A stretch of DNA of 32,434 nucleotides from Pseudomonadota bacterium (lineage in GTDB: Bacteria; Pseudomonadota; Alphaproteobacteria; Micropepsales; Micropepsaceae): NCBI GenBank assembly GCA_021804785.1, contig JAJZGY010000027.1:1-32434 (forward strand). The letters run 5' to 3'. The position numbers and the translations under genes are program-made. The notes under the pieces were generated by a model that was not told the origin of the DNA, ran no database searches, and saw nothing but the letters and a program-made list of their open reading frames with translations. Shown here piece by piece: positions 20,265-32,308 of this stretch. The stretch's first letter is position 1. The number at the start of each line of letters is the position of its first letter.

Positions 20265-20445
20265 GTGTTAAGTGTACATGGCGACGTAGTCACCGTCGAC
20301 ATGATGGACATTGCCAGCTTGCCCAGGCGCGTTGGCGCCGGGCTACAGCGTCGACGCTCAATTTGTCAGCGTTCAGGATCACGGACGTCTCCCGTGCCGC
20401 GGGGGGCAGCCGGTTGGCCAAGGTCTGGGCCGGCGGTTTTGGCAC

Positions 20446-20474
20446 TTGAAGGGGGTTCTCTAATTATATATATG
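20446..20474 (+). promoter_or_regulatory. Predicted promoter of the suyAB-comC-slcC operon
   Basis: TTGAAG at 20446-20451 and TATATG at 20469-20474 are separated by 17 bases, a good sigma-70-type spacing, inside an AT-rich patch (TAATTATATATATG) that contrasts with the GC-rich flanks. Other TATATA registers overlap. The -10 region runs into the palindromic operator. The rest of 20265-20510 has only small self-complementary stretches, such as the perfect palindrome AGCGTCGACGCT at 20347-20358. Confidence 0.5.
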
Positions 20475-20489
20475 TCTTATATAAGACAT
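20472..20489. promoter_or_regulatory. Perfect 18-bp palindrome, candidate GntR operator
   Basis: ATGTCTTATATAAGACAT is exactly its own reverse complement. It begins within the predicted -10 element and ends 21 bases before the suyA start codon, the classic place for a repressor to block initiation. The GntR/UTRA regulator at the far end of the cluster is the obvious binding partner, and one arm of the palindrome recurs upstream of that gene. Confidence 0.65.
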
Positions 20490-20510
20490 GAAATCTAAAC
20501 GGGGGGACCG

Positions 20511-20798
20511 ATGGGCGCGCCTCATCTGCTCGTTCACAATCGAAAGGATAACGTCGGGGTCGTGGTGGTTGAGGGCCTGAAGGCTGGCACCCAGATGCTC
20601 TGCGTTATCACCGACGACAACAGCGATTTTATGCTCGAGGCCAAGCAGGACGTGCCGATCGGCCATAAAATCGCGCTGCGTGACCTCAGCCCGGGCGATA
20701 CCGTGATCAAGTACGGTGAAGATATCGGCCGCATCGTTGAACGCGTCGGCAAGGGCGAGCACGTTCATGTCCACAATCTCAAGACAAAGCGCTGGTAG
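20511..20798 (+). CDS. suyA: (R)-sulfolactate sulfo-lyase small subunit SuyA (SAF domain)
   Basis: A 95-residue SAF-domain protein, the small subunit of a split UxaA/SuyA-type lyase. Features are the strand [12 protein letters not shown], then [40 protein letters not shown] and HVHNL at the end, the usual closing motif of these subunits. With SuyB it would release sulfite from (R)-3-sulfolactate, leaving pyruvate. Altronate and galactarate dehydratases share the fold, so the assignment rests mainly on SuyB and the comC/slcC neighbours. A GGGGGA ribosome-binding site precedes the ATG; suyB starts 8 bases after the stop. It is the first gene behind the palindromic operator. Confidence 0.75.
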
Positions 20799-20806
20799 GT
20801 GAGACC

Positions 20807-21982
20807 ATGAACCTGTCACAACGTAAAATCTGGGGCTACCGCCGCGAAAATGGACGCGTTGGCGTCCGTAATTATGTCGCCATCCTGCCTCTTGACGATA
20901 TTTCCAATGCGGCCTGTGAAGCCGTGGCGAGTCACATTCAAGGTACGATCGCGTTACCTCATGCCTATGGGAGGCTGCAGTTCGGAGAAGACCTGGATCT
21001 GCACTTTCGCGTGATGATCGGAACGGGCTCCAATCCCAATGTCGCTGCCTGCATCGTCATTGGCATCGAAGAGCACTGGACCATGAAGGTGGTGGAAGGC
21101 ATCGCCAAAACGGGAAAGCCGGTGGCTGGCTTTTGGATCGAAGGTAGTGGCGATATCGCAACTGTAGCTGCAGCATCCCGCAAGGCTAAGGAATTCGTGC
21201 ATCTCACCTCTGGAATTCTGCGCACCGAGTGTCCGCTGGCGGATGTTTGGGTTGCCGCGAAGTGCGGCGAGTCCGATACAACAACCGGTCTTGCCTCGTG
21301 TCCAACGGTCGGCAACATGTATGACAAGCTGATACCATTGGGGCTTTATGGCTGTTTCGGAGAAACTTCGGAACTGACCGGCGCCGAGCATTTGGCCGCG
21401 GCGCGGGCGGCTACGCCTGAGATTGGCGAGAAATTCATGAAGGTGTTTTCCGCTTACCAGGCCGAAGTGATCGAGGCGCATAAAACCTCTGACCTGTCGG
21501 ATAGTCAGCCAACCAAAGGCAACATTGCCGGTGGTCTTACAACCATCGAAGAGAAGGCGCTCGGTAACCTCGAGAAAATCGGTAAGACGACACGCTTTAT
21601 AGATGTATTGAAGCCGGCCGAGGCGCCGGACAATGGTCCTGGGCTGTATTTTATGGACACCTCCTCGGCAGCTGCGGAATGCTGCACACTGCAGGCTGCG
21701 GCCGGGTATGTCGTGCATATTTTCCCGACCGGGCAGGGCAATGTGATTGGCAATCCGATCATGCCCGTGATTAAGGTCTCCGGTAATCCGCGCACGGTCC
21801 GTACGATGAGTGAGCACATCGATCTGGATGTGTCGGGTATTGTCCGCCGTGAGATGGTACTTGATGAAGCCGGTGACAAGCTGATCGCCATGATCGAGCG
21901 CACGGCCAACGGGCGCCTGACCTCCGCAGAAGCTTTGGGTCACAGGGAATTCGTAATGACCAAGCTGTACAGGAGCGCATGA
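20807..21982 (+). CDS. suyB: (R)-sulfolactate sulfo-lyase large subunit SuyB
   Basis: A 391-residue catalytic subunit of the UxaA/GarD C-terminal family, about the 42 kDa known for SuyB. It reads [20 protein letters not shown], then [19 protein letters not shown] and [10 protein letters not shown], where altronate dehydratase has a different SHTYGCSQLGDD-type segment. Further on are [57 protein letters not shown] and [14 protein letters not shown]. These agree with my recollection of SuyB more than of UxaA; this has not been checked by a search. The enzyme eliminates sulfite from (R)-sulfolactate. Its stop overlaps the comC start by 4 bases. Confidence 0.75.
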
Positions 21983-22998
21983 AAACTGTTGTTCTGACGA
22001 TTTCAGAGGCGGCAGCGCTGGCGACCCGTGCGTTAATGGCGTCTGGGGCGTCACAGGTAAGTGCAGCCTCGACCGCGGCGGCTCTCGTCGCGGCCGACGT
22101 GGATGGACAGTCTGGGCACGGGCTTTCTCGTCTGCCGAGCTATGCGCTCCAGCTCCGCGTCGGAAAGGTAAATGGCAAAGCTGAGCCGTTCGCGGAGATG
22201 CGCGGCCCGGCGAGCATTCGGATTGACGCAGGAGCTGGATTTGCCTATCCCGCGATCGATATTGCTGTCGAGCGGCTGGCAGAGTTGATTCCCCAGATGG
22301 GCGTGGCGGCTGCGGGTATCTTTGCCTCCCATCATTTTGGCCAGGCTGGGCGCCACGTGGAACGGCTTGCCGAAAGGGGCTTCGTTGCGCTGGCGTTTGC
22401 CAACTCGCCCAGCGCAATGGCCTTTCATGCCGGGCGGAAGCCTATGACAGGCACCAATCCGGTTGCCTTCGCTGCACCAGTTAAGGGGCGGGCACCTCTT
22501 GTAATCGATATGTCGCTGTCCGTCGCCGCCCGTGGCAAGATTGTCGCCGCTAGCAAGGCTGGCAAGCCCATTCCAGGTGACTGGGCCATTGACGCGGAGG
22601 GCCGGCCGACCACCGATGCGTCGGCGGCTCTTGGGGGTACGTTGCTGCCGGTTGGTGGGGTGAAGGGTGCAGCATTGGCACTGATGATCGAGGTGCTTTG
22701 TGGGGCACTTGTGGGTGGTCACTTTGGCTGGGAGGCAAGCTCATTGCTTAATGCAGAAGGTGGCCCTCCATTGCTCGGGCACCTGCTTGTCGGATTTAAT
22801 CCGTTCTCGTTTGTCGGGGATGGCTTTGGTGATCGCATGCGCATACTCGTGGACGCTGTGGAAGCAGAGTATCCGGCGCGTCTGCCGGGTAGCCGCAGAC
22901 TGGAGATGCGCTCCCGCGCTGGGGTTGAAGGCATAGCGATATCCGCTACCCTTCACGAAGAGATCATTGCCCTAATACGCGATGCGGAGCCGGCATGA
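21979..22998 (+). CDS. comC: (R)-sulfolactate dehydrogenase ComC (malate/L-lactate dehydrogenase family)
   Basis: A 339-residue NAD(P)-dependent 2-hydroxyacid dehydrogenase of the YbiC/Ldh2 type. It shows [16 protein letters not shown] near residue 45, the catalytic histidine in [12 protein letters not shown] (His119), [10 protein letters not shown], and [20 protein letters not shown]. In known sulfolactate degraders ComC reduces sulfopyruvate to (R)-sulfolactate, the isomer SuyAB uses. It overlaps suyB and slcC by 4 bases each, so the three are translationally coupled. In isolation the sequence could equally be a malate or other hydroxyacid dehydrogenase; the function comes from context. Confidence 0.7.
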
Positions 22999-23921
22999 GT
23001 GAAATTGTCATATCCGAGTTCATGTCCGAAGCTGCCATCGCGAGCGCGCTAGACGGATTTGACGTTCTTTACGATCCCTCGCTTGTTGACCGGCCCGATA
23101 TGCTCGCTGCGGCACTGGATGACTGTCGTGGGCTCATTGTACGCAATCGCACCCAGGTGAACGAGACGCTTTTAAATATCGCTCCACACTTGAAAGTTGT
23201 AGGGCGTCTTGGCGTGGGTCTTGACAACATAAACACCGAGGCTTGCGCCGCACGCAAGGTCTCGGTATTCCCGGCCACTGGCGCCAACGATTTGTCGGTA
23301 GCTGAGTATGTCATCACCGCAGCGCTGGTTCTGTTACGCCGGGCGTGGTTTGCCACCGCTGACGTCGCAGCGGGCTCTTGGCCGCGAATGCAGCTGATTG
23401 GCAGTGAAGCTGAAGGAAGGCGACTTGGCCTTGTTGGCTTCGGCGCAATTGCTCAGCTGACCGCAAAGAAGGCTCGTGCGCTGGGGCTCTCCGTTTGTGG
23501 TTTCGATCCGTACGTGGCTTCTGATGATCCCAGGTGGGCTGGTATTGAACAAATAAAATTTGGCGACCTTCTTGCTACGTGCGACATTGTCAGTCTTCAC
23601 GTACCGCTCAGTGCCAATACCCGCGGCATGATCAGTGCCGATGCGATAGCGCAGATGAAAAGGGGTGCGATCCTGATCAACGCGGCGCGCGGCGGAGTGG
23701 TAGATGAAGCTGCACTCGTGGAAGCACTCAAATCTGGACATCTTGGTGGGGCCGCACTGGACGTCTTTAGCGAGGAACCTGTTAGTGCGCGAAGCGGTGC
23801 AATTTTTAACGCAGTTCCAAATCTGATTCTAACTCCGCACATTGCCGGTGTGACCACGCAGTCAAATGAGCGCGTTAGCCTTGTGACCGCTCAGGCCGTC
23901 GCGCGCGCCTTACGCAGTTGA
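22995..23921 (+). CDS. slcC: (S)-sulfolactate dehydrogenase SlcC (D-2-hydroxyacid dehydrogenase family)
   Basis: A 308-residue SerA-like NAD-dependent dehydrogenase. The substrate-binding part contains VGRLGVGLDNIN; the Rossmann motif is GLVGFGAIAQ (from about 146); catalytic residues fit Arg232 (NAARGGVVDE), Glu261 (FSEEP) and His282 (TPHIAGVT). The N-terminus (VISEFMSEAAI, then VLYDPSLVDRPD) agrees with SlcC-type sulfolactate dehydrogenases as I recall them. SlcC oxidises (S)-3-sulfolactate to sulfopyruvate, which ComC then reduces to the (R) isomer, so the pair acts as a racemase. It starts inside the comC stop (ATGA) and ends 83 bases before the dehydratase gene. Confidence 0.7.
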   Translation: MSEIVISEFMSEAAIASALDGFDVLYDPSLVDRPDMLAAALDDCRGLIVRNRTQVNETLLNIAPHLKVVGRLGVGLDNINTEACAARKVSVFPATGANDLSVAEYVITAALVLLRRAWFATADVAAGSWPRMQLIGSEAEGRRLGLVGFGAIAQLTAKKARALGLSVCGFDPYVASDDPRWAGIEQIKFGDLLATCDIVSLHVPLSANTRGMISADAIAQMKRGAILINAARGGVVDEAALVEALKSGHLGGAALDVFSEEPVSARSGAIFNAVPNLILTPHIAGVTTQSNERVSLVTAQAVARALRS

Positions 23922-24004: not shown

Positions 24005-25732
24005 ATGACGAAATCGCGACCGCTCCGTAGTGCCCGCTGGTATGCGTCAGAGGACATGCGAGGGTTCGCCCATCGCCAACGCACGCAGCAGATGGGCTTG
24101 CGCCGCGAAGAATTCATGGGCCGGCCGGTCATTGCCATCGTCAACACCTGGAGCGAGATGAGCCCCTGCCACATCCATCTGCGCGGGGTCGCAGATGCGG
24201 TGAAGCGTGGGGTGCTTCTTGCCGGGGGATATCCCGTTGAGTTGCCCGCTCTATCCGTGGGCGAAGTGATGGTGAAGCCCTCCACCATGCTCTATCGAAA
24301 TTTTCTGGCGATGGAGACGGAGGAGTTGTTGCGCTCTCATCCCATCGATGGAGCGGTGTTGCTGGGTGGCTGCGATAAGTCGACGCCGGGGCTGCTCATG
24401 GGCGCGATCAGTATGGATCTTCCAGCGATTTTCTGTCCGGCCGGACCGATGTCAAATGGACGCTGGCGTGGTGTTAAGACTGGGGCTGGTACGCATACCC
24501 GAAAATATTGGGATGAGCTGCGTGCAGGCGAAATAACCACGCAAGACTGGGTAGACCTTGAAGCGCGGATGACGAGATCCATCGGGACCTGCAACACGAT
24601 GGGAACAGCATCAACGATGACGGGTATCGTCGATGCGATGGGCCTGACCCTGCCTGGTGCATCCAGCATTCCCGCTGCTGACTCTGGTCACCTGCGTATG
24701 GCGTCGCTGTGTGGAGAGCGGATTGTCAGCATGGTGGCTGAAGATCTGCGTCCTTCGGCACTGCTCACACGTGGATCATTTCTCAATGGAGCCGCTGCCT
24801 ATATGGCGCTTGGCGGTTCCACGAATGCGGCTATCCACCTCGTAGCGCTTGCTGGCAGGGCTGGAATAAAGCTGACGCTCGAAGACCTCGCAGAGGCGGC
24901 GAACCGTATTCCGGTGTGCGCCAATCTCTTTCCCTCGGGAAATGCGTTGATGGAGGATTTTTTCTTTGCCGGGGGGCTCCTCGCTCTGCTTGCAAAGCTG
25001 CGAGATCATCTCGATCTCAGCTGTCCTACGGTCAACGGTCTGGTCTTGGGTGAAAACATCGGGCATGCTGCGTGTTATGATGACGACGTGATCCGTGATC
25101 TGGATAATCCTGTCGTTCCTTTGTCGCGCGGACGTACGTTGGCGCTACTCCGTGGAAACCTTTGTCCGGATGGGGCGGTGATGAAGACGAGCGCGGCTGA
25201 TCCACGCTTCTTCAATCATACGGGACCTGCGCTGGTTTTTGACAGTAACGCCCATATGCTTTCGGCGATTGACGACCCAGCCACTGATGTGAGTGCCAAC
25301 CACGTACTCATCCTCAGAAATGCCGGTCCGGTTGGGGCTCCAGGCATGCCGGAATGGGGAAACTTACCAATTCCAAGGAAACTTCTTTCTGCAGGGGTGC
25401 GCGACATGCTCCGCATTTCTGATGCACGTATGTCTGGTACTCATTATGGTGCGTGTGTTGTTCACGTCGCGCCGGAGTCTGCCATAGGTGGACCGCTTTC
25501 CCTGGTGCGCACGGGTGATCCCATCCGGATCGACGTGCAGGCTGGAACGCTCGACATGTTAGTGAGTGACGAAGAGCTTGCTCGTCGGCGTGCTATTTGG
25601 CAGCGTCCAGCCCCTGCTTATAAGCGCTCTTATGCTGCTCTCTACCAGGCCCATGTGGGGCAGGCGCCGGAAGGCTGCGATTTCGACTTTCTCAGTGGCA
25701 CCAGCCCAGTTCCGGAACCGTCCATCTATTGA
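24005..25732 (+). CDS. IlvD/Edd-family sugar-acid dehydratase, candidate 6-deoxy-6-sulfogluconate dehydratase
   Basis: A 575-residue iron-sulfur dehydratase. The three expected cluster cysteines are visible: Cys55 (WSEMSPCHIHL), Cys123 (LGGCDKSTPG) and Cys196 (SIGTCNTMGTAST). Additional family motifs are PAADSGHLRMA, ALGGSTNAAIHL and ISDARMSGTHYGACVVHVAP. The sequence is closer to sugar-acid dehydratases such as L-arabonate dehydratase than to dihydroxy-acid dehydratase. In sulfo-ED an enzyme of this family turns 6-deoxy-6-sulfogluconate into 2-keto-3,6-dideoxy-6-sulfogluconate, which the next gene would cleave. The ATG at 24005 follows a weak GAGAAAG. The substrate is inferred from the surrounding genes; a pentonate or another hexonate remains possible. 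Confidence 0.78.
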   Translation: MTKSRPLRSARWYASEDMRGFAHRQRTQQMGLRREEFMGRPVIAIVNTWSEMSPCHIHLRGVADAVKRGVLLAGGYPVELPALSVGEVMVKPSTMLYRNFLAMETEELLRSHPIDGAVLLGGCDKSTPGLLMGAISMDLPAIFCPAGPMSNGRWRGVKTGAGTHTRKYWDELRAGEITTQDWVDLEARMTRSIGTCNTMGTASTMTGIVDAMGLTLPGASSIPAADSGHLRMASLCGERIVSMVAEDLRPSALLTRGSFLNGAAAYMALGGSTNAAIHLVALAGRAGIKLTLEDLAEAANRIPVCANLFPSGNALMEDFFFAGGLLALLAKLRDHLDLSCPTVNGLVLGENIGHAACYDDDVIRDLDNPVVPLSRGRTLALLRGNLCPDGAVMKTSAADPRFFNHTGPALVFDSNAHMLSAIDDPATDVSANHVLILRNAGPVGAPGMPEWGNLPIPRKLLSAGVRDMLRISDARMSGTHYGACVVHVAPESAIGGPLSLVRTGDPIRIDVQAGTLDMLVSDEELARRRAIWQRPAPAYKRSYAALYQAHVGQAPEGCDFDFLSGTSPVPEPSIY

Positions 25733-25742
25733 GGACCAGCCG

Positions 25743-26549
25743 ATGATCTATAATCGCTTCAAGTTCCGTCTGACAGATGGCAGTGAGCCACAGCTTGGTA
25801 CATGGCTAATGTCTGCTGCACCTTCTACCGCTGAGGCGATGGGTTTCTGCGGCTTCGATTTTCTTGTCGTTGACATGGAACACGTAGCGATAGAAGTGGC
25901 CGACATGGCGTCCATTCTTCGCGCGATTTCTGGTACGCCAGCCGATGCCGTGGTGCGCATTGCTTGGAACGATCAGGTGCTCATCAAGCGCGTCCTCGAT
26001 GGGGGCGCAAGAAGCATAATGATTCCATTCGTACAGAACGCGGATGAAGCTCGTGCTGCAGTATCGTTTACCCGCTATCCTCCGGAAGGGGTTCGTGGTG
26101 TCGCTGCTATCCATCGTGGTTCCCGTTACGGCAGAATGGATGGCTACTTCGCCCGCGCTAACCAGGACGTGGCGGTGATTGTTCAGATCGAAACTGCGGC
26201 CGCGGTGGAACGCATTGCGGAAATCGCGGCGGTACCGGGGATCGACGGGCTTTTTCTGGGGCCGGGCGATCTGGCCGCCAGTCTCGGTCATATAGGCAAT
26301 ATCGCTCATCCGGAAGTGCAGAAAATGATAGCGCTGGCGGCTCGTAGTGCCGCGAGTTCCGGAAAGCCCATTGGTATTGTGGGACCTAATCCCGAAATGG
26401 TAGGTAATTTTCTCGCCTTTGGTTACAGGTTTGCAGCAGTCTCGTCTGATATGGCCATGATGACCGGGCGTGCAGCGGAGTGGCTGCTTGCGTTGCGCGG
26501 TGCAAAAGAGGCTGGATCCGTTCCGTCGGCCCCTGAGGCGGCATATTGA
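25743..26549 (+). CDS. HpcH/HpaI-family class II aldolase, candidate KDSG aldolase
   Basis: A 268-residue metal-dependent pyruvate aldolase. Key positions fit the family: the catalytic base His47 in VVDMEHVAIE, Arg72 in VVRIAWND, metal ligands Glu150 (VQIETAAAVE) and Asp176 (FLGPGDLAAS). The family cleaves 2-keto-3-deoxy acids to pyruvate and an aldehyde; in sulfo-ED the aldehyde is 3-sulfolactaldehyde. The ATG at 25743 has a good GAGGA site and lies 10 bases after the dehydratase stop; the longer open frame upstream only shadows the dehydratase. The next gene begins within its stop codon. The fold does not reveal whether the substrate carries a sulfonate. Confidence 0.82.
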   Translation: MIYNRFKFRLTDGSEPQLGTWLMSAAPSTAEAMGFCGFDFLVVDMEHVAIEVADMASILRAISGTPADAVVRIAWNDQVLIKRVLDGGARSIMIPFVQNADEARAAVSFTRYPPEGVRGVAAIHRGSRYGRMDGYFARANQDVAVIVQIETAAAVERIAEIAAVPGIDGLFLGPGDLAASLGHIGNIAHPEVQKMIALAARSAASSGKPIGIVGPNPEMVGNFLAFGYRFAAVSSDMAMMTGRAAEWLLALRGAKEAGSVPSAPEAAY

Positions 26550-27418
26550 ACCGCGTCGTCACGCTCTCGGCAGGTCTTATGGAGGCTCGTATTGCGCCCG
26601 AGATCGGCGGAGCCTTGCTGTCGCTGCGATATGCCGGCCGGTCGTTGATGCGCGAGACGCCGAACGAAGCTATTGCGGCGGGAAATGTACGACTTACGGC
26701 GGGATTTCCGCTTGTACCTTATGGTAACCGGATTGCTGACGGCCGCTTTGAGTTTTCCGGTCGAAGTTGCCGCTTGGTCACCAATTTTCCCGGCAGTTCA
26801 CAACCGCTGCATGGCATTGGCTGGCAGCGTGCCTGGCGTGTTGTGAGCGAGACAAAGGATGGCTGCACGCTGGCCTATGAGAGTGGCGCCGGAGATAAGA
26901 GTGATTGGCCCTTCCGGTTTGGTACCGAACTGCACTATCGGCTCCGGCCCAATGGCATTGATGTTTCCCTCTACATGACAAATAAAGAAGAATTCCCGGC
27001 GCCCGCCGGTCTGGGCTTTCATCCCTTCTTCCTGATAGGCGAGCGGACGCGTGTTCGGTTTGCTGCAAAGGCACTATGGACGAATGATCCTGCATTTCTT
27101 CCGCTTAAGCCGATAGTGGAGGAGGCGCGACGCTTTGCGTCGGGCTGGCAACCGGCCGGAGGCCATTTGGATAACGATATCGAAGGGTGGGACGGACGCC
27201 TTTTCCTTACCGCCATGCCTGGGGACTTGGCTGTGACCATGACGGTTGAACCTGTGTTTAGCTGGCTGCGTATCTTCAACCCACCTAAGAGCAATAGCAT
27301 TGGCGTTGAACCAATGACGCATGCAACGAACGCGATTAACCGAAGTGATGTACCGCCTATGGCTGTCCTAAGCACAGGCGAACGCCTGGGTGGGACAATT
27401 TCCATCAACGTGTCGTAA
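26546..27418 (+). CDS. Aldose 1-epimerase, candidate sulfoquinovose mutarotase
   Basis: A 290-residue galactose-mutarotase-fold protein that would interconvert anomers of the sugar before oxidation. Family residues are visible: Arg62 in PLVPYGNRIADGRF, His89 in QPLHGIGWQ, His159 in GLGFHPFF and the catalytic Glu255 in GVEPMTH. The start is TTG at 26546 inside the aldolase stop (TTGA), with GAGG about 10 bases upstream; an ATG at 26579 (MEARIAPEIGG) is a less likely alternative because it removes the first strand. Mutarotases are known in several sulfoquinovose gene clusters. Confidence 0.8.
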   Translation: MNRVVTLSAGLMEARIAPEIGGALLSLRYAGRSLMRETPNEAIAAGNVRLTAGFPLVPYGNRIADGRFEFSGRSCRLVTNFPGSSQPLHGIGWQRAWRVVSETKDGCTLAYESGAGDKSDWPFRFGTELHYRLRPNGIDVSLYMTNKEEFPAPAGLGFHPFFLIGERTRVRFAAKALWTNDPAFLPLKPIVEEARRFASGWQPAGGHLDNDIEGWDGRLFLTAMPGDLAVTMTVEPVFSWLRIFNPPKSNSIGVEPMTHATNAINRSDVPPMAVLSTGERLGGTISINVS

Positions 27419-28287
27419 TGGCGATGACGGAATTTCGGCCCGTACTCGATGCTGGAACCATATTGGGCGAAAGTCCGGTTTGGTCAGATCGATGGCTGGC
27501 ATTATTCTTTGTCGATATCACCGGTAGGAAGTTGCACCGCTATGAGCCGGTGAGTGGCGGGCACAACGTCGTTTCGATAGACGAAGATATCGGCTGTGTG
27601 GCGCCGGCTTCCGATGGAGGATTTATCGCTGGCCTACGTTCGGGCATCTGGCGTCTGGACGCCGCGGGGCGCAAGTCTTGCAAACTTGCCTCCAATCCCG
27701 AAGACATACGTACTAGTCGATTTAATGATGGGCGCGTTGATCCGCGGGGACGCCTTCTCGCCGGTACGATCGATGAGCCGAAGGCCGGTGCAGCCGCATG
27801 CCTCTATCGCCTTGACGGCACAAAACTATCTGTTCTCGCCAAAGGATTAACTACCTCGAACGGCCTTGCGTTCTCACCTGATGGCCGCACACTCTACCAC
27901 TCGGATACGCCCCGCTTTGTGATTTATAAGTATGACTATGACGTGGCGACAGGCACAGTGGAAAACCGACGCATATTCGCGGAGCTTGAGCCCACAGGAA
28001 CGGACAGAGGGCGTCCTGATGGCGCGGCTGTTGATGCCGAGGGTTGTTACTGGACTGCACTTTATGAGGGCGCGCGTGTGCGGCGATACGATCCCGGAGG
28101 CCGTGTCATGGCCGACTATCCCGTCCCGGCACGGTATCCAACGATGATAGCATTTGGCGGCACCGATCGACAGACCCTATTTCTGACAACAGCGAACGGT
28201 GAGGGAGGCGGCGTACTTTATGCAGCCGATGTAGGCATCGGCGGTCTTGTTCCGCCAGAGTTTGTGAGCGAGGACCATCCGAAATGA
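27418..28287 (+). CDS. SMP-30/gluconolactonase-family lactonase, candidate 6-deoxy-6-sulfogluconolactonase
   Basis: A 289-residue six-bladed beta-propeller hydrolase. The four metal-binding residues of the family can be placed: Glu18 (ILGESPVW), Asn103 (SRFNDGRVD), Asn148 (TTSNGLAFSPDG) and Asp201 (RPDGAAVDAEG). It would open the sugar lactone made by the SDR enzyme encoded next. The start ATG shares one base with the mutarotase stop (TAATG), and the SDR gene overlaps its end by 4 bases. The fold is shared by lactonases for many sugars, so substrate identity is contextual. Confidence 0.82.
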   Translation: MAMTEFRPVLDAGTILGESPVWSDRWLALFFVDITGRKLHRYEPVSGGHNVVSIDEDIGCVAPASDGGFIAGLRSGIWRLDAAGRKSCKLASNPEDIRTSRFNDGRVDPRGRLLAGTIDEPKAGAAACLYRLDGTKLSVLAKGLTTSNGLAFSPDGRTLYHSDTPRFVIYKYDYDVATGTVENRRIFAELEPTGTDRGRPDGAAVDAEGCYWTALYEGARVRRYDPGGRVMADYPVPARYPTMIAFGGTDRQTLFLTTANGEGGGVLYAADVGIGGLVPPEFVSEDHPK

Positions 28288-29048
28288 ATGAAGCCTATGA
28301 GCATGTGCGGTACAAATCGTTGCACGATCGCTGTGTGGTGATCACGGGTGGAGCCTCGGGTATTGGTGCTGCACTGGTAGAAGCTTTTGTATCTCAAGGC
28401 GCGCGTGTCCATTTCCTTGACATCGACGATAAGGGTGGAGCGCGGATGGCAGTGGCGACGGGAGCACAGTTTCACCATTGTGACCTTCGCGACATCCCGT
28501 CGTTGCGCAAGTGTTTGTCGCAGATCGAGACGGACGCCCGAGGTATTGGAGTGCTGATCAACAATGCTGGAAAGGATGATCGGCAGGAGGTGATGTCGAT
28601 CGAGCCCGAGGCCTGGCGGCAGATGCTTAGCCTCAATCTCGATCATCAATTCTTCGCGTCGCAGGTGGTCGCTCGCGGCATGATGGAGCGCGGCGAAGGT
28701 TCGATCGTCATGCTGGGATCCGTGTCATGGATGCGGGGGCGACCGGGCATGGCCGGGTACACGACTTCGAAGGCCGCCATTAATGGATTAACTCGCACAC
28801 TTGCACGCGAATTTGGTCCCAGCGGTGTGCGAGTTAACTGCATCGTCCCGGGAGCTATCTTGACTGAACGGCAGCGTGCCTTGTGGCTTACGCCTGAACT
28901 CGATCGCCAGTTCATTGAATTGCAGGCACTGAAATTTCGGCTTATACCCGAGCACGTCGCACGCGTGGCGCTGTTTCTTGGGTCGGACGAAAGCGCCGGT
29001 TGCACCGGCGCGAATTTCATGGTTGACGCCGGCTTGACCCAGAACTAG
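28284..29048 (+). CDS. SDR-family sugar dehydrogenase, candidate sulfoquinovose dehydrogenase
   Basis: A 254-residue classical short-chain dehydrogenase. The cofactor loop is TGGASGIG (21-28), with Asp46/Asp48 at the end of strand 2 (FLDIDD) pointing to NAD rather than NADP. NNAG is at 93-96 and the catalytic set is Ser146, Tyr159 and Lys163 (GYTTSK). It ends with MVDAGLTQN, as usual for the family. In sulfo-ED such an enzyme oxidises sulfoquinovose at C1 to the lactone. It is the last gene of the coupled run from the aldolase on, and its stop lies 10 bases from the stop of the convergent regulator gene. Confidence 0.8.
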   Translation: MNEAYEHVRYKSLHDRCVVITGGASGIGAALVEAFVSQGARVHFLDIDDKGGARMAVATGAQFHHCDLRDIPSLRKCLSQIETDARGIGVLINNAGKDDRQEVMSIEPEAWRQMLSLNLDHQFFASQVVARGMMERGEGSIVMLGSVSWMRGRPGMAGYTTSKAAINGLTRTLAREFGPSGVRVNCIVPGAILTERQRALWLTPELDRQFIELQALKFRLIPEHVARVALFLGSDESAGCTGANFMVDAGLTQN

Positions 29049-29058
29049 GGCGGCTAAT

Positions 29059-29775
29059 TTAGCTCAGAGTTACTGCATAAGCCAGGTTTGGCGCGTATAT
29101 CCTGCTCAGCCTCCACTCCACTTTGCGGTCCTGAAGTGTTTTGGCTATGCGATCGATGCACTGGATCGGTGCACCAAGCGGGGCTCCGAGCATTTTTTGG
29201 TCGTCTTTGTTCGCGATATCGGGACGTAGCTGCTCTTCAGTTGAAATGATATTGATTCCGAAATCAGTCTGATAGAGCGAATAGAGCGTATTGGGCAGAG
29301 GACGGCGTGTTTCGATTCCTTGAAATAGCGATGCCGATAAAATGATTGTCTCGAGGATCGCAGGGCGTCCTTCAAGCAGCCTGGTTCGGGTGATCTCTAT
29401 CACACGCTGTTTTTTTGGAAGGTCGAGCCGCTTTTGCTCTATGGTGCGCGCCGCCCGCACGACCACGGTTTCTACGCCCCGGGCAGGCGTGACGCGTTCG
29501 CCGTCAGGCGTCACCATGCGGAAGAAACGGAATAATGAACGTTCCTGCGTATTGGAAGCGACAAATGTGCCTTTGCCCTGATGACGTTCCAGCAGGTTTT
29601 CCGCTGTCATGGCGTCGAGAACTTTGCGCATCGTGCCTTGGCTTACTCCAAGCTCGCGGGCCAATGCCTGTTCACTTGGCAGGGATTCACCGGCACGCCA
29701 GACACCCTTAGCGACTTTCTCGACCATAATGTCGTAAACTTGGCGATAGAGGGGGCGGTATCCTGGAAATTCCAT
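29059..29775 (-). CDS. GntR-family regulator with UTRA effector domain (HutC subfamily)
   Basis: A 238-residue regulator. The N-terminal winged helix (about 8-75) contains LPSEQALARELGVSQGTMRK and NLLERHQGKGTFV; the rest is a UTRA ligand-binding domain (ERSLFRFFRMVTPDGERVTP, RTRLLEGRPAILETIILSAS and a C-terminal IDRIAKTLQDRKVEWRLSRI). UTRA domains bind sugar or acid metabolites, so a pathway intermediate such as the sugar or sulfolactate could be the inducer. The ATG at 29775 has AAGGAA about 11 bases upstream; an in-frame TTG at 29811 is less likely. Convergent to the catabolic genes; the palindrome at 20472 is its likely target. Confidence 0.88.
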   Translation of the reverse strand: MEFPGYRPLYRQVYDIMVEKVAKGVWRAGESLPSEQALARELGVSQGTMRKVLDAMTAENLLERHQGKGTFVASNTQERSLFRFFRMVTPDGERVTPARGVETVVVRAARTIEQKRLDLPKKQRVIEITRTRLLEGRPAILETIILSASLFQGIETRRPLPNTLYSLYQTDFGINIISTEEQLRPDIANKDDQKMLGAPLGAPIQCIDRIAKTLQDRKVEWRLSRIYAPNLAYAVTLS

Positions 29776-31285
29776 GAGATGACAGTTCCTTGTATGACGA
29801 AACCTGACCAAGCTGATACTGAAGGCAGGCGTCGGGCATGCAAATCACATAAACAGTATAAGACAAAACATGACGTCATCATATCGTGGCAGAGCCTTGC
29901 GGCTCGAAGACCGCAAAACGTGATGCAGCCGTCCTGGGTGCCGCAACTTGGGGATGAAGCAGCTGGCACCTATCCTGCGGCCTTGGACACGCAGCGAGGG
30001 TCCATCCCCCGGTCGCGACAGTCCGTTAGGGTCCCAGGCGTGTTAGCAGATTGATCAGCTACCTATATTCTCGACAGTCGGTGACTATGTCACAGAGGAG
30101 ACTTGCTCTTGCATGGAATCATGACCCCATGGCACTGCCGCCAGGGGTGAGGTCTAGTGTGCGGGTTGGGCTGAACAGCCGTTGGGGTCTCTATCTCGTA
30201 AGAGCGAAGCGGCATGTCACCCGCCCAATAGCGGCCGGAAAAAAGACTGCATGCTGACGGTGCTAACGTCTTCTAGCTTTGGCAATTGACATGAGATAGA
30301 TGACCTATTGGCTAAGCGGGACGGGATCGCACGTCACCCGGCGGTAAGGAAGCACTTATACACTTGATTTAATTGCTAAAATCTCGCGCCGGCTGGCACC
30401 ATGGCCATGAAGGCTGGAGTGGGTCCGTGGGAGCCTGCGCCCAGAGGGCGTGGCCGCTGGGCATGTCGGCTCGCCTGATTGCGGCGTGCGCCTATTTTAG
30501 GGGGCTGATCCGCCGTTCTTGCGGGCGATGGCCATCGCTGGCTCATTTCCTAACAGATCGCGCGCGCGCAGTTCGTGTGGGTGGCGGAATAAAGATCCCA
30601 AAGGTGGGGTCGCGCAGCAGCGTCAGTCTCGGGCTCCGTCTGCAGGTGCAGGATAGGCCCACTGAATCTGCCCCGTTGGGACCGGACGAACCGGGATGAT
30701 CGGCTGGATCAATCGCTGCGTTGAGAGATGCTAGCCGGCAACGCGCGGTCCCAATCCCCGTGGGCACCTTCAGGCTGAACCTACGAATTTTGTGGTGAAC
30801 AAAATCTCACGACGGTGGTACCGCCACATCTGCCGGTTCACTGCAGAGGCCAACGAGGCTCACCGCCGAGCGCTCCGTGGCGCGGTAACCCCAAGTTAGC
30901 CAAGCGAAATGCTACTTGCCTTAAGGTCCGTAAAATATGGCCATTGACGGCTGTTTATCTCACTGAGACAGATTCACTCGATCGCCTGCTTTGTGCATGA
31001 ATTGGCGATCGCAACGGGTCCGCATCTTCTGCCTATCAGTCTCGCTGAGACAGTATTTCAGGTGCCGCCGGAGCCCGGGCTGGCTGGGTATCCAGTCAGG
31101 TTTCGCGTCTCTCTCTGGAAATTACCGCACCTTTAAGCGATCATCCTCTGATCAACTTGACCGATTGCGGCAAAAAGCAAAGCTAGTACGTTCCTGGGAT
31201 TACGGTCAGTGTATGTACGTTCTCAACCCATGAGAGCCTCATCAATCCTTACGATCCGCGATCGAAACAAACTGGAAGCGCCGTG
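29776..31285. other. About 1.5 kb without a convincing intact gene
   Basis: Only short frames are present, none with a good start and family resemblance. Some pieces look like decayed coding DNA. On the minus strand, LLRDPTFGIFIPPP (about 30640-30590) would continue after a frame change as HELRARDLLGNEPAMAIARK (about 30575-30510). On the plus strand, LTETDSLDRLLCA ends near 31000, and HELAIATGPHLLPISLAETV followed by FQVPPEPGLAGYPVRFRVSL (about 31000-31120) lies in a different frame. I cannot name the ancestors. The stretch before the regulator start holds its promoter region. Confidence 0.5.
29857..29865. promoter_or_regulatory. Half-site of the suyA palindrome upstream of the gntR gene
   Basis: TATAAGACA matches 9 of 9 bases of one arm of the 20472-20489 palindrome, 82 bases before the regulator start; the other arm is not conserved. 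A separate perfect palindrome, ATGACGTCAT (29870-29879), lies next to it. Together they suggest possible autoregulation, with low certainty because a 9-mer can recur by chance. Confidence 0.35.
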
Positions 31286-32308
31286 ATGTATGAAATCTCA
31301 GATCAGGAAAGACAGTCCGGAAGAATTTCCCCAGATACTCTGGAATCCATCGTCAGGGACGTTCAAAGAAGAGGCTACGCGGTTGTAAAAAATGTGGTTT
31401 CTCTGGAAACCTGTGCCTTTCTAAATGAAAGCATCCTAGAGGATGTCGCGCGAATACGTGTACCCGGACGGGTGACCCAGCATGAGATAAATACGGGCCG
31501 CGGACATCTGCAACTGGGAATTCGGCGCAACGCTCCATACGTTAAGCAGGAACTTCTCGCTAACCCCCTGGTTGAATGTGTTGTCGCCGGCGTATTGGGG
31601 CACGGCGCCTGGCTCGGGTTCTACAGTGGCAACATAAATTGTCCTGGTAGCACATGTCAGCCACTCCACTTTGACAGGCCATTTTCATGGAAGTCCCCTG
31701 TCGACGCTTCTCGGGATGGCGAGAGTTGGCCACCGCCCACAACCACTTTGAGCTGCTCAGTAGCACTTCAAGATATCACTGAGGCTAACGGAGCAACAGA
31801 AATTTATCCGGGGACACATCGCGAAACGGAAGTGGCTCAATGGTCCAGTAACCGGATCGGGGATCGTCCGGATCTGATCAAAAAATGGGCTCCATCGTTA
31901 CGGATGGAAATTCCAGCAGGTGGAGTTTGCTTTCGTGACCCAAGGATGTGGCACCGGGGTGTTCCAAATACAGCGAATAAGGCGCGTGCCATGATCGCAG
32001 TGACCTATCATGCTGGAAGGTGCAAACATTGGCGTGGACTATACCTGAGGGACCTCGATCCAGAAGTTGTCAAACGATGCGAGAGCGATCCGGCATTACG
32101 CGTAATGGATGACGGAAGGCTGGCTGACGGCCGTCTGCTCTTTCAGTCAGATACACGTGGGGTGTTCGACAGGGCACCTAACCCTTACGGCATATACAGA
32201 AATGTCCGCTTCATAGAGGAACCGGAGCGTGTCAATCACTTCCTGGACGCTCATAGCGTCGGTGGTGCCCGTGTTGTTAGGGGTGATATTTCACCAGACG
32301 AGGATTGA
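31286..32308 (+). CDS. Phytanoyl-CoA dioxygenase (PhyH) family Fe(II)/2-oxoglutarate oxygenase
   Basis: A 340-residue cupin-fold oxygenase. Iron ligands can be assigned as His128 and Asp130 (QPLHFDRPF) and His223 (RMWHRGVPN), with Arg234 (NKARAMIAVTY) placed to bind 2-oxoglutarate. Family members hydroxylate or oxidatively cleave varied small molecules; PhyH proteins of bacterial catabolic and natural-product loci rarely act on phytanoyl-CoA. The ATG at 31286 has GGAAG 8 bases upstream and is preferred over the GTG at 31283. The following epimerase-like gene begins 2 bases after the stop, so the two are probably co-transcribed. Base composition is more AT-rich than in the core genes. Substrate unknown. 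Confidence 0.8.
   Translation: MYEISDQERQSGRISPDTLESIVRDVQRRGYAVVKNVVSLETCAFLNESILEDVARIRVPGRVTQHEINTGRGHLQLGIRRNAPYVKQELLANPLVECVVAGVLGHGAWLGFYSGNINCPGSTCQPLHFDRPFSWKSPVDASRDGESWPPPTTTLSCSVALQDITEANGATEIYPGTHRETEVAQWSSNRIGDRPDLIKKWAPSLRMEIPAGGVCFRDPRMWHRGVPNTANKARAMIAVTYHAGRCKHWRGLYLRDLDPEVVKRCESDPALRVMDDGRLADGRLLFQSDTRGVFDRAPNPYGIYRNVRFIEEPERVNHFLDAHSVGGARVVRGDISPDED

Follow-up and report, generated by a model that had tools for sequence, protein, structure and literature searches.

The described regulator closest to the one considered here is SdhR, a GntR-family protein of the HutC subfamily with the motif TCTTATGTCTTATATAAGACATAAGA, which was omitted as exceptional from a correlation analysis (PMC4494728); a full-text search for the core sequence TCTTATATAAGA matched this paper alone. 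In another member of the subfamily, NagR, Arg38 and Arg48 read operator bases -5 and -4 (G-5 and G-4; PMC4333415). As for the enzymes concerned, SuyAB is the only heteromeric one among its superfamily's four functional enzymes (PMC6336799), and work on Chromohalobacter salexigens names a regulator gene, suyR, together with suyAB (PMC6018796). The sulfo-Entner-Doudoroff (sulfo-ED) pathway uses a dehydratase of family PF00920, and the sulfofucose variant one of PF13378/PF02746 (PMC12421959). A 2026 study of sulfoquinovose ecology reports that Elstera relatives have a sulfoquinovosidase of family GH31 and part of a sulfo-ED cluster; it mentions neither GntR nor a regulator (PMC13372026). In the literature searched, which leaves most subscription papers outside and so may miss prior work, no description was found of sulfoquinovose or sulfolactate genes under a GntR regulator, nor of any regulator of the sulfo-ED branch; the main texts of two reviews do not contain the words GntR, regulator, or repressor.

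The DNA analyzed here (the window) is a stretch of 32,434 nt, one whole contig (C167) of a 3.29 Mb genome in 171 contigs that is 96% complete (G000). A first-pass annotation had pointed to an exact 18-bp palindrome within 20446-20489, AT-rich in GC-rich surroundings, and to a GntR/UTRA regulator gene at the end of the following cluster. All of this holds. The palindrome sits at 20472-20489, with its center 30 bp upstream of the suyA ATG (20511); GC content is 0.40 at 20441-20510 vs. 0.63 at 20265-20440 and 0.56 at 20511-21982; and a convergent GntR/UTRA gene ends the cluster (Table 1). From the comparisons below, the palindrome is very probably the operator of this GntR protein, which would repress the suyA promoter until released by a sulfonate of the pathway. 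Within this proposal, we infer the binding itself, repression rather than activation, the transcription start, a single transcription unit for the gene run, and the identity of the inducer.

Table 1. Features of the suyA promoter, the gene cluster behind it, and the regulator gene (positions in the window).
Feature	Position	Strand	Basis or remark
Candidate operator, perfect palindrome ATGTCTTATATAAGACAT	20472-20489	.	Exact symmetry; identical in G020; core recurs at GntR-linked suyA promoters
Operator core TCTTATATAAGA	20475-20486		Inside palindrome ATGTCTTATATAAGACAT
Candidate sigma-70-type promoter TTGGCA-17-AATTAT	20439-20467	+	Promoter scan, 9/12; ends just before palindrome; TTGGGA in G020
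Candidate sigma-70-type promoter TTGAAG-17-TATATG	20446-20474	+	TTGAAG 20446-20451, TATATG 20469-20474; choice of the first-pass annotation
suyA-like, SAF domain, first gene behind operator	20511-20798	+	Domain profile
suyB-like, GD_AH second and C-terminal domains	20807-21982	+	Domain profile
Ldh_2-family dehydrogenase, ComC-like	21979-22998	+	Best NCBIfam NF040650 (L-sulfolactate dehydrogenase), 183 bits, below cut-off of 500
2-hydroxyacid dehydrogenase, SlcC-like	22995-23921	+	Label from context
IlvD/Edd-family dehydratase (PF00920), candidate sulfogluconate dehydratase	24005-25732	+	Family match
HpcH/HpaI aldolase (PF03328), candidate KDSG aldolase	25743-26549	+	
Aldose 1-epimerase, candidate mutarotase	26546-27418	+	
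SMP-30/gluconolactonase family, candidate sulfogluconolactonase	27418-28287	+	
SDR	28284-29048	+	Best solved structure sulfoquinovose 1-dehydrogenase (9gwu, 282.5 bits; next 206.5)
gntR, proposed repressor: GntR HTH and UTRA, HutC subfamily	29059-29811	-	PF00392 66.6 bits, PF07702 77.2 bits, each above its cut-off
Half-site TTGTCTTATAC upstream of gntR	29856-29866	-	Shared with G020; may serve weakly in autoregulation

Named by family and context, the genes behind the palindrome look like a sulfo-ED route joined to sulfolactate cleavage. SAF and GD_AH domains are on separate subunits, as in SuyAB, and the sulfo-ED set of SDR, SMP-30 lactonase, PF00920 dehydratase, and PF03328 aldolase is found together in the cluster; a scan of the cluster genes revealed neither a sulfolactaldehyde dehydrogenase nor any other aldehyde dehydrogenase. 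Sulfofucose was considered as the sugar on the strength of an NCBIfam L-arabinonate dehydratase label on the IlvD protein (883.5 vs. a cut-off of 882), and was set aside: its published dehydratase belongs to another family, the SDR has its best match in sulfoquinovose dehydrogenase, and a protein of G020, the closest relative to carry the cluster, is 66% identical to a GH31 enzyme of another genome (G210) for which the best solved matches are yihQ chains. The label, 1.5 bits over its cut-off, is probably misleading, and judging from these protein families the sugar substrate in G000 would be sulfoquinovose rather than sulfofucose.

In the proposed mechanism, a GntR dimer would occupy the palindrome, covering the place where the -10 region ends and transcription is expected to start, and would block the promoter of the gene run from suyA and suyB to the SDR gene. 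Judged by family, the products of these genes would yield pyruvate and sulfite from sulfoquinovose or sulfolactate. Binding of a sulfonated intermediate to the UTRA domain would then free the operator of GntR. The palindrome had been thought to begin inside a -10 hexamer. It does begin inside TATATG, but this hexamer, which is without the final T, is one of two -10 candidates. Both candidate promoters (20439-20474) are within the block conserved with G020, and from either of them transcription would be expected to start inside the palindrome or at its edge. This arrangement bears on whether the same GntR could act from this site as an activator or dual regulator instead of a simple repressor. 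The sequence does not fix the sign, and the extra symmetric boxes in the published SdhR motif mean that more complex binding is possible in the family; both candidate -35 elements, however, lie upstream of the site, which is at -10/+1, where a dimer would block, and the relative NagR is described as blocking transcription. Activation at this promoter is thus improbable, and repression is the preferred reading.

In G020, where SuyB is 97% identical to that of the window, the cluster contig stops inside suyA, and the suyA start and promoter open another contig; suyA is 97-99% identical in the two pieces. The promoter contig has the identical 18-mer, beside the same terB-like and hydantoinase-like genes. 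Between window and G020, all 25 positions of 20465-20489 are identical, as are 92% of those at 20440-20464, while the seven 25-base stretches of 20265-20439 are only 24-68% identical. One UTRA protein was found in each genome, the cluster GntR in G000 and its orthologue in G020. A second genome of the same genus, G014 (SuyB 87%), lacks both a UTRA protein and a core site at up to one mismatch, the sequence before its suyA being ATGTCTTGTATATGTCCT, with four mismatches; G020 has both regulator and site.

Site and regulator also occur together in two wider samples. Among 385 alphaproteobacterial genomes, SuyB was found at 1e-100 in 34, G000 and 33 others; 32 of the 33 loci were taken together with as much as 20 kb of flanking sequence, and G213, with suyB at a contig edge, was left out. 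All five loci with a GntR homologue in the region (G143, G210, G164, G369, and G266) have the core, with at most one mismatch, 52-119 bp before suyA, and G210 has a second core place 184 bp from it. At the same threshold the core is found in none of the 27 loci without GntR in the region (Fisher p = 5e-6), a count that includes two weak tests (G373, where the position of suyA could not be found, and G211, which offers ~80 bp before suyA) as well as several stretches below 20 kb and some loci on short contigs, for which a distant GntR could be missed. Two AT-rich GntR-negative loci (G331 and G242) have 2-mismatch matches before suyA. The gammaproteobacterial sample, drawn from the class to which G602 belongs (369 genomes), yielded 13 SuyB loci: the site (at most one mismatch) is in four of four with a GntR protein whose recognition helix begins S-Q-G-T, as in the window, vs. 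none of five without GntR (p = 0.008), and four with a GntR carrying V, I, or T for Q have no site at that threshold. Rows called SdhR-like (see below) and loci of G708, G632, G607, and G718 came via the motif and were excluded from both counts. At the L004 locus there is a 2-mismatch site only, between suyA and ilvD.

The first-pass annotation had made conservation upstream of orthologous suyAB clusters one of its tests; among the loci compared, at up to one mismatch, the site is present with GntR proteins of the S-Q-G-T type and absent without GntR. Its assignment to the cluster GntR gains support from this, the site tracking a type of regulator of which G000 has a single UTRA representative. 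That some other regulator of the genome uses the palindrome is accordingly quite unlikely. The cluster regulator does lack a full site at its own promoter, which has a half-site (autoregulation would therefore be weak), but no second UTRA protein was found in G000 to take its place, and G014 has neither site nor regulator.

Less probable still is an RNA hairpin or terminator in the suyA 5' leader. The palindrome transcript could pair 7 bp, but its fold z-score is -1.56, with 17 of 200 shuffles equally good, and at other loci the site is found between divergent genes, its distance from suyA ranging from 30 to 184 bp; no terminator-like site turned up and there is no Rfam match, leaving both terminator and riboswitch unsupported. 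A chance palindrome in an AT-rich promoter can practically be dismissed: perfect palindromes of at least 18 bp do appear in 68 of 300 (23%) dinucleotide shuffles of the whole window, but an 18-bp palindrome appears in none of 5000 shuffles of the local 71 bp, and the site is conserved and found with its regulator.

Because of the window-wide figure, length is not significant and was rejected as evidence for function; since length alone is weak, the case is built on conservation and co-occurrence with the regulator. Motif abundance is likewise unusable, as the core (at most one mismatch) has 28 places in 10 genomes vs. 27 for its reversed control. The location of the core is telling; its abundance is not. 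The genome scan suggested by the first-pass annotation gave a single place in G000 for the 18-mer at up to three mismatches, and the core is unique there within one. A 14-bp pattern with up to three mismatches has 19 places in G000 vs. 78 for its control, so that no further regulon member can be named in this genome. In a scan across the phylum, the 18-mer was found within two mismatches in 45 of 397 genomes, vs. 12 of 397 for the reversed control.

Sulfolactate is a first guess at the inducer, because in G369, G266, G708, and G632 the regulator gene is accompanied by suyAB and slcC/comC-like genes, whereas the sulfo-ED genes of the window have no counterpart in the region taken; the first two of these came from the SuyB sample and the others via the motif, so that suyAB-bearing loci were favored by sampling. 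For the subclade of the window protein, a compound from the sulfoquinovose stage is another possibility. S-Q-G-T regulators are also found, with core sites, in stretches without suyAB (L083 in G243, L084 and L137 in G332, G073, and L140 in G607), which weakens the case for any one inducer. L140 and L083 include genes for MocA-type oxidoreductases and for TRAP or tripartite tricarboxylate transporters.

The regulator itself has an N-terminal GntR HTH and a C-terminal UTRA domain, the HutC-subfamily arrangement (domain and helix assignments are from HMMs and alignment). Its gene opens with TTG at 29811, and codon 13 is an ATG (29775); since the G210 relative also has an M at this alignment position, translation may really begin at the shorter start. 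Two near-identical sequences, TCTC(A/G)CTGAGACAG, lie at 30958-30971 and 31040-31053, in the interval that separates gntR from the gene at 31283-32308.

In a tree of 62 regulator rows, for which the program warns of long branches, S-Q-G-T and S-V/I/T-G-T regulators form one clade of 35 rows, including the window regulator (support 100/98). At several 18-mer loci of the phylum scan there are GntRs 31-36% identical to the window's, which we term SdhR-like; 11 such rows form a subclade of their own (100/100) without the window protein. This subclade joins three S-V/I-G-T suy regulators (99/93) and is placed among sulfonate-linked rows at lesser support (87/79, 90/90). The genes beside SdhR-like GntRs we take, from their N-termini, to be those for malate or succinate dehydrogenase, and some 18-mer sites precede what is presumably isocitrate lyase, also named from its N-terminus. 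The window regulator belongs to a different, six-member group (98/91). Five of its members are encoded beside suyA, and the sixth comes from a Niveispirillum MAG (L003), at whose locus none of the other window cluster genes was found within 10 kb.

A comparison of 55 UTRA proteins suggests how the DNA would be read. S-Q-G-T is found at the start of the recognition helix in 27 of them, and most of the other 28 have S-R-x-T at this position. A core site is within 700 bp for 21 of the 27 vs. none of the 28, which belong to a set of 89 places; 20 of the stretches taken have short flanks, making site absence a weak test for some of them. For the 12 S-Q-G-T rows that came from protein search rather than the motif, the figure is seven. 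One of the 28, L215 (S-V-G-T), is inside the clade, as the regulator of the G602 suyAB contig. In the window protein, Q48 and Q58 align with Arg38 and Arg48 of NagR, and Q48, Q58, and G59 are at the positions of NagR's DNA-reading residues. Across 29 distinct site sequences that differ from the core at one base at most, C-5 and T-4 never vary in either half, partly by construction, since resemblance to the core was how they were selected; the G1019 site deviates at +4.

Two suyA promoters, in G602 (L260, 10756) and G1065 (L257), have instead TCATATATATGA, a symmetric change at -4 alone, and both regulators have V at the Q58 position (S-V-G-T), that of G602 being encoded 4.7 kb from suyA. The base changed in these two promoters is the one touched by the equivalent NagR residue. 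At the G824 (I) and G781 (T) loci, neither standard nor variant site was found. G602 also has an SdhR-like S-Q-G-T regulator with a standard site (L143). It is conceivable, although we would sooner bet against it, that one UTRA clade reading TCTTATATAAGA runs many proteobacterial sulfolactate and sulfosugar genes, with SdhR as a late offshoot, and that where SdhR-like and sulfonate regulators share a genome, as seen in G602, V for Q pairs with A for T at -4, which would keep the circuits apart. Such a residue-base covariation was not met in print, no dedicated search having been made.

In G210, five of six genomic core places (at most one mismatch) fall within 16 kb: one between GH31 and AMP-binding genes, one between TonB-dependent receptor and aldehyde dehydrogenase genes, a third upstream of gntR, and the remaining two in the interval from which suyA and ilvD diverge. 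In or beside this region are GH31 (of the yihQ/sulfoquinovosidase kind), TonB receptor, Aldedh, gntR, suyAB, and sulfo-ED genes; the yihQ matches of the GH31 protein score 1029 bits, and a match named sulfoquinovosidase 709 bits. The GH31 homologue of G020 is ~2 kb from a TonB receptor gene preceded by a 1-mismatch site. Neither the G210 GH31 enzyme nor the G020 TonB receptor has a match in G000, where loss or an assembly gap is possible, the window being a whole contig. In G073, a perfect core lies between genes for a ComA-family protein (phosphosulfolactate synthase) and a TauE-type sulfite exporter (L085, 15089-16837), in a stretch without suyAB, and further perfect core sites are near a TctC-family gene.

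Sulfoquinovose is among the most abundant organic sulfur compounds (PMC12890257). A concrete regulator, an operator, and a candidate contact residue make regulation of the sulfo-ED branch testable, and the operator motif could be used to find further sulfonate genes.

Compared with known systems, the proposed circuit resembles in role that of CsqR (YihW) of E. coli, a sulfoquinovose-responsive repressor of the sulfoquinovose pathway (PMC6278857); CsqR, however, is of the DeoR family, which the source prints as DoeR, and E. coli uses the sulfo-EMP pathway. In architecture the regulator resembles the HutC-subfamily repressors NagR/YvoA and DasR, which share the GntR and UTRA domains and are the nearest solved structures, but where NagR reads G-5 and G-4 with Arg38 and Arg48, the window has Q48 and Q58 and a site with C-5 and T-4. 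The operator type is already known, being that of a HutC-type regulator with an SdhR-type motif; its use for sulfosugar or sulfolactate genes was not found in the literature searched. The published SdhR motif contains the window 18-mer ATGTCTTATATAAGACAT letter for letter as its inner part, and SdhR-like rows and the window regulator have the S-Q-G-T helix start and the 35-row clade in common. Unlike SdhR, the window gene is in a sulfonate-type cluster rather than an sdh/mdh context, its product falls outside the SdhR-like clade, and the full outer boxes of the 26-bp motif are missing (by eye, ATATAT at 20468-20473 vs. TCTTAT, 3/6; ATGAAA at 20488-20493 vs. ATAAGA, 4/6). By these sequence features, the window protein has the DNA-reading type of SdhR, yet is not SdhR.
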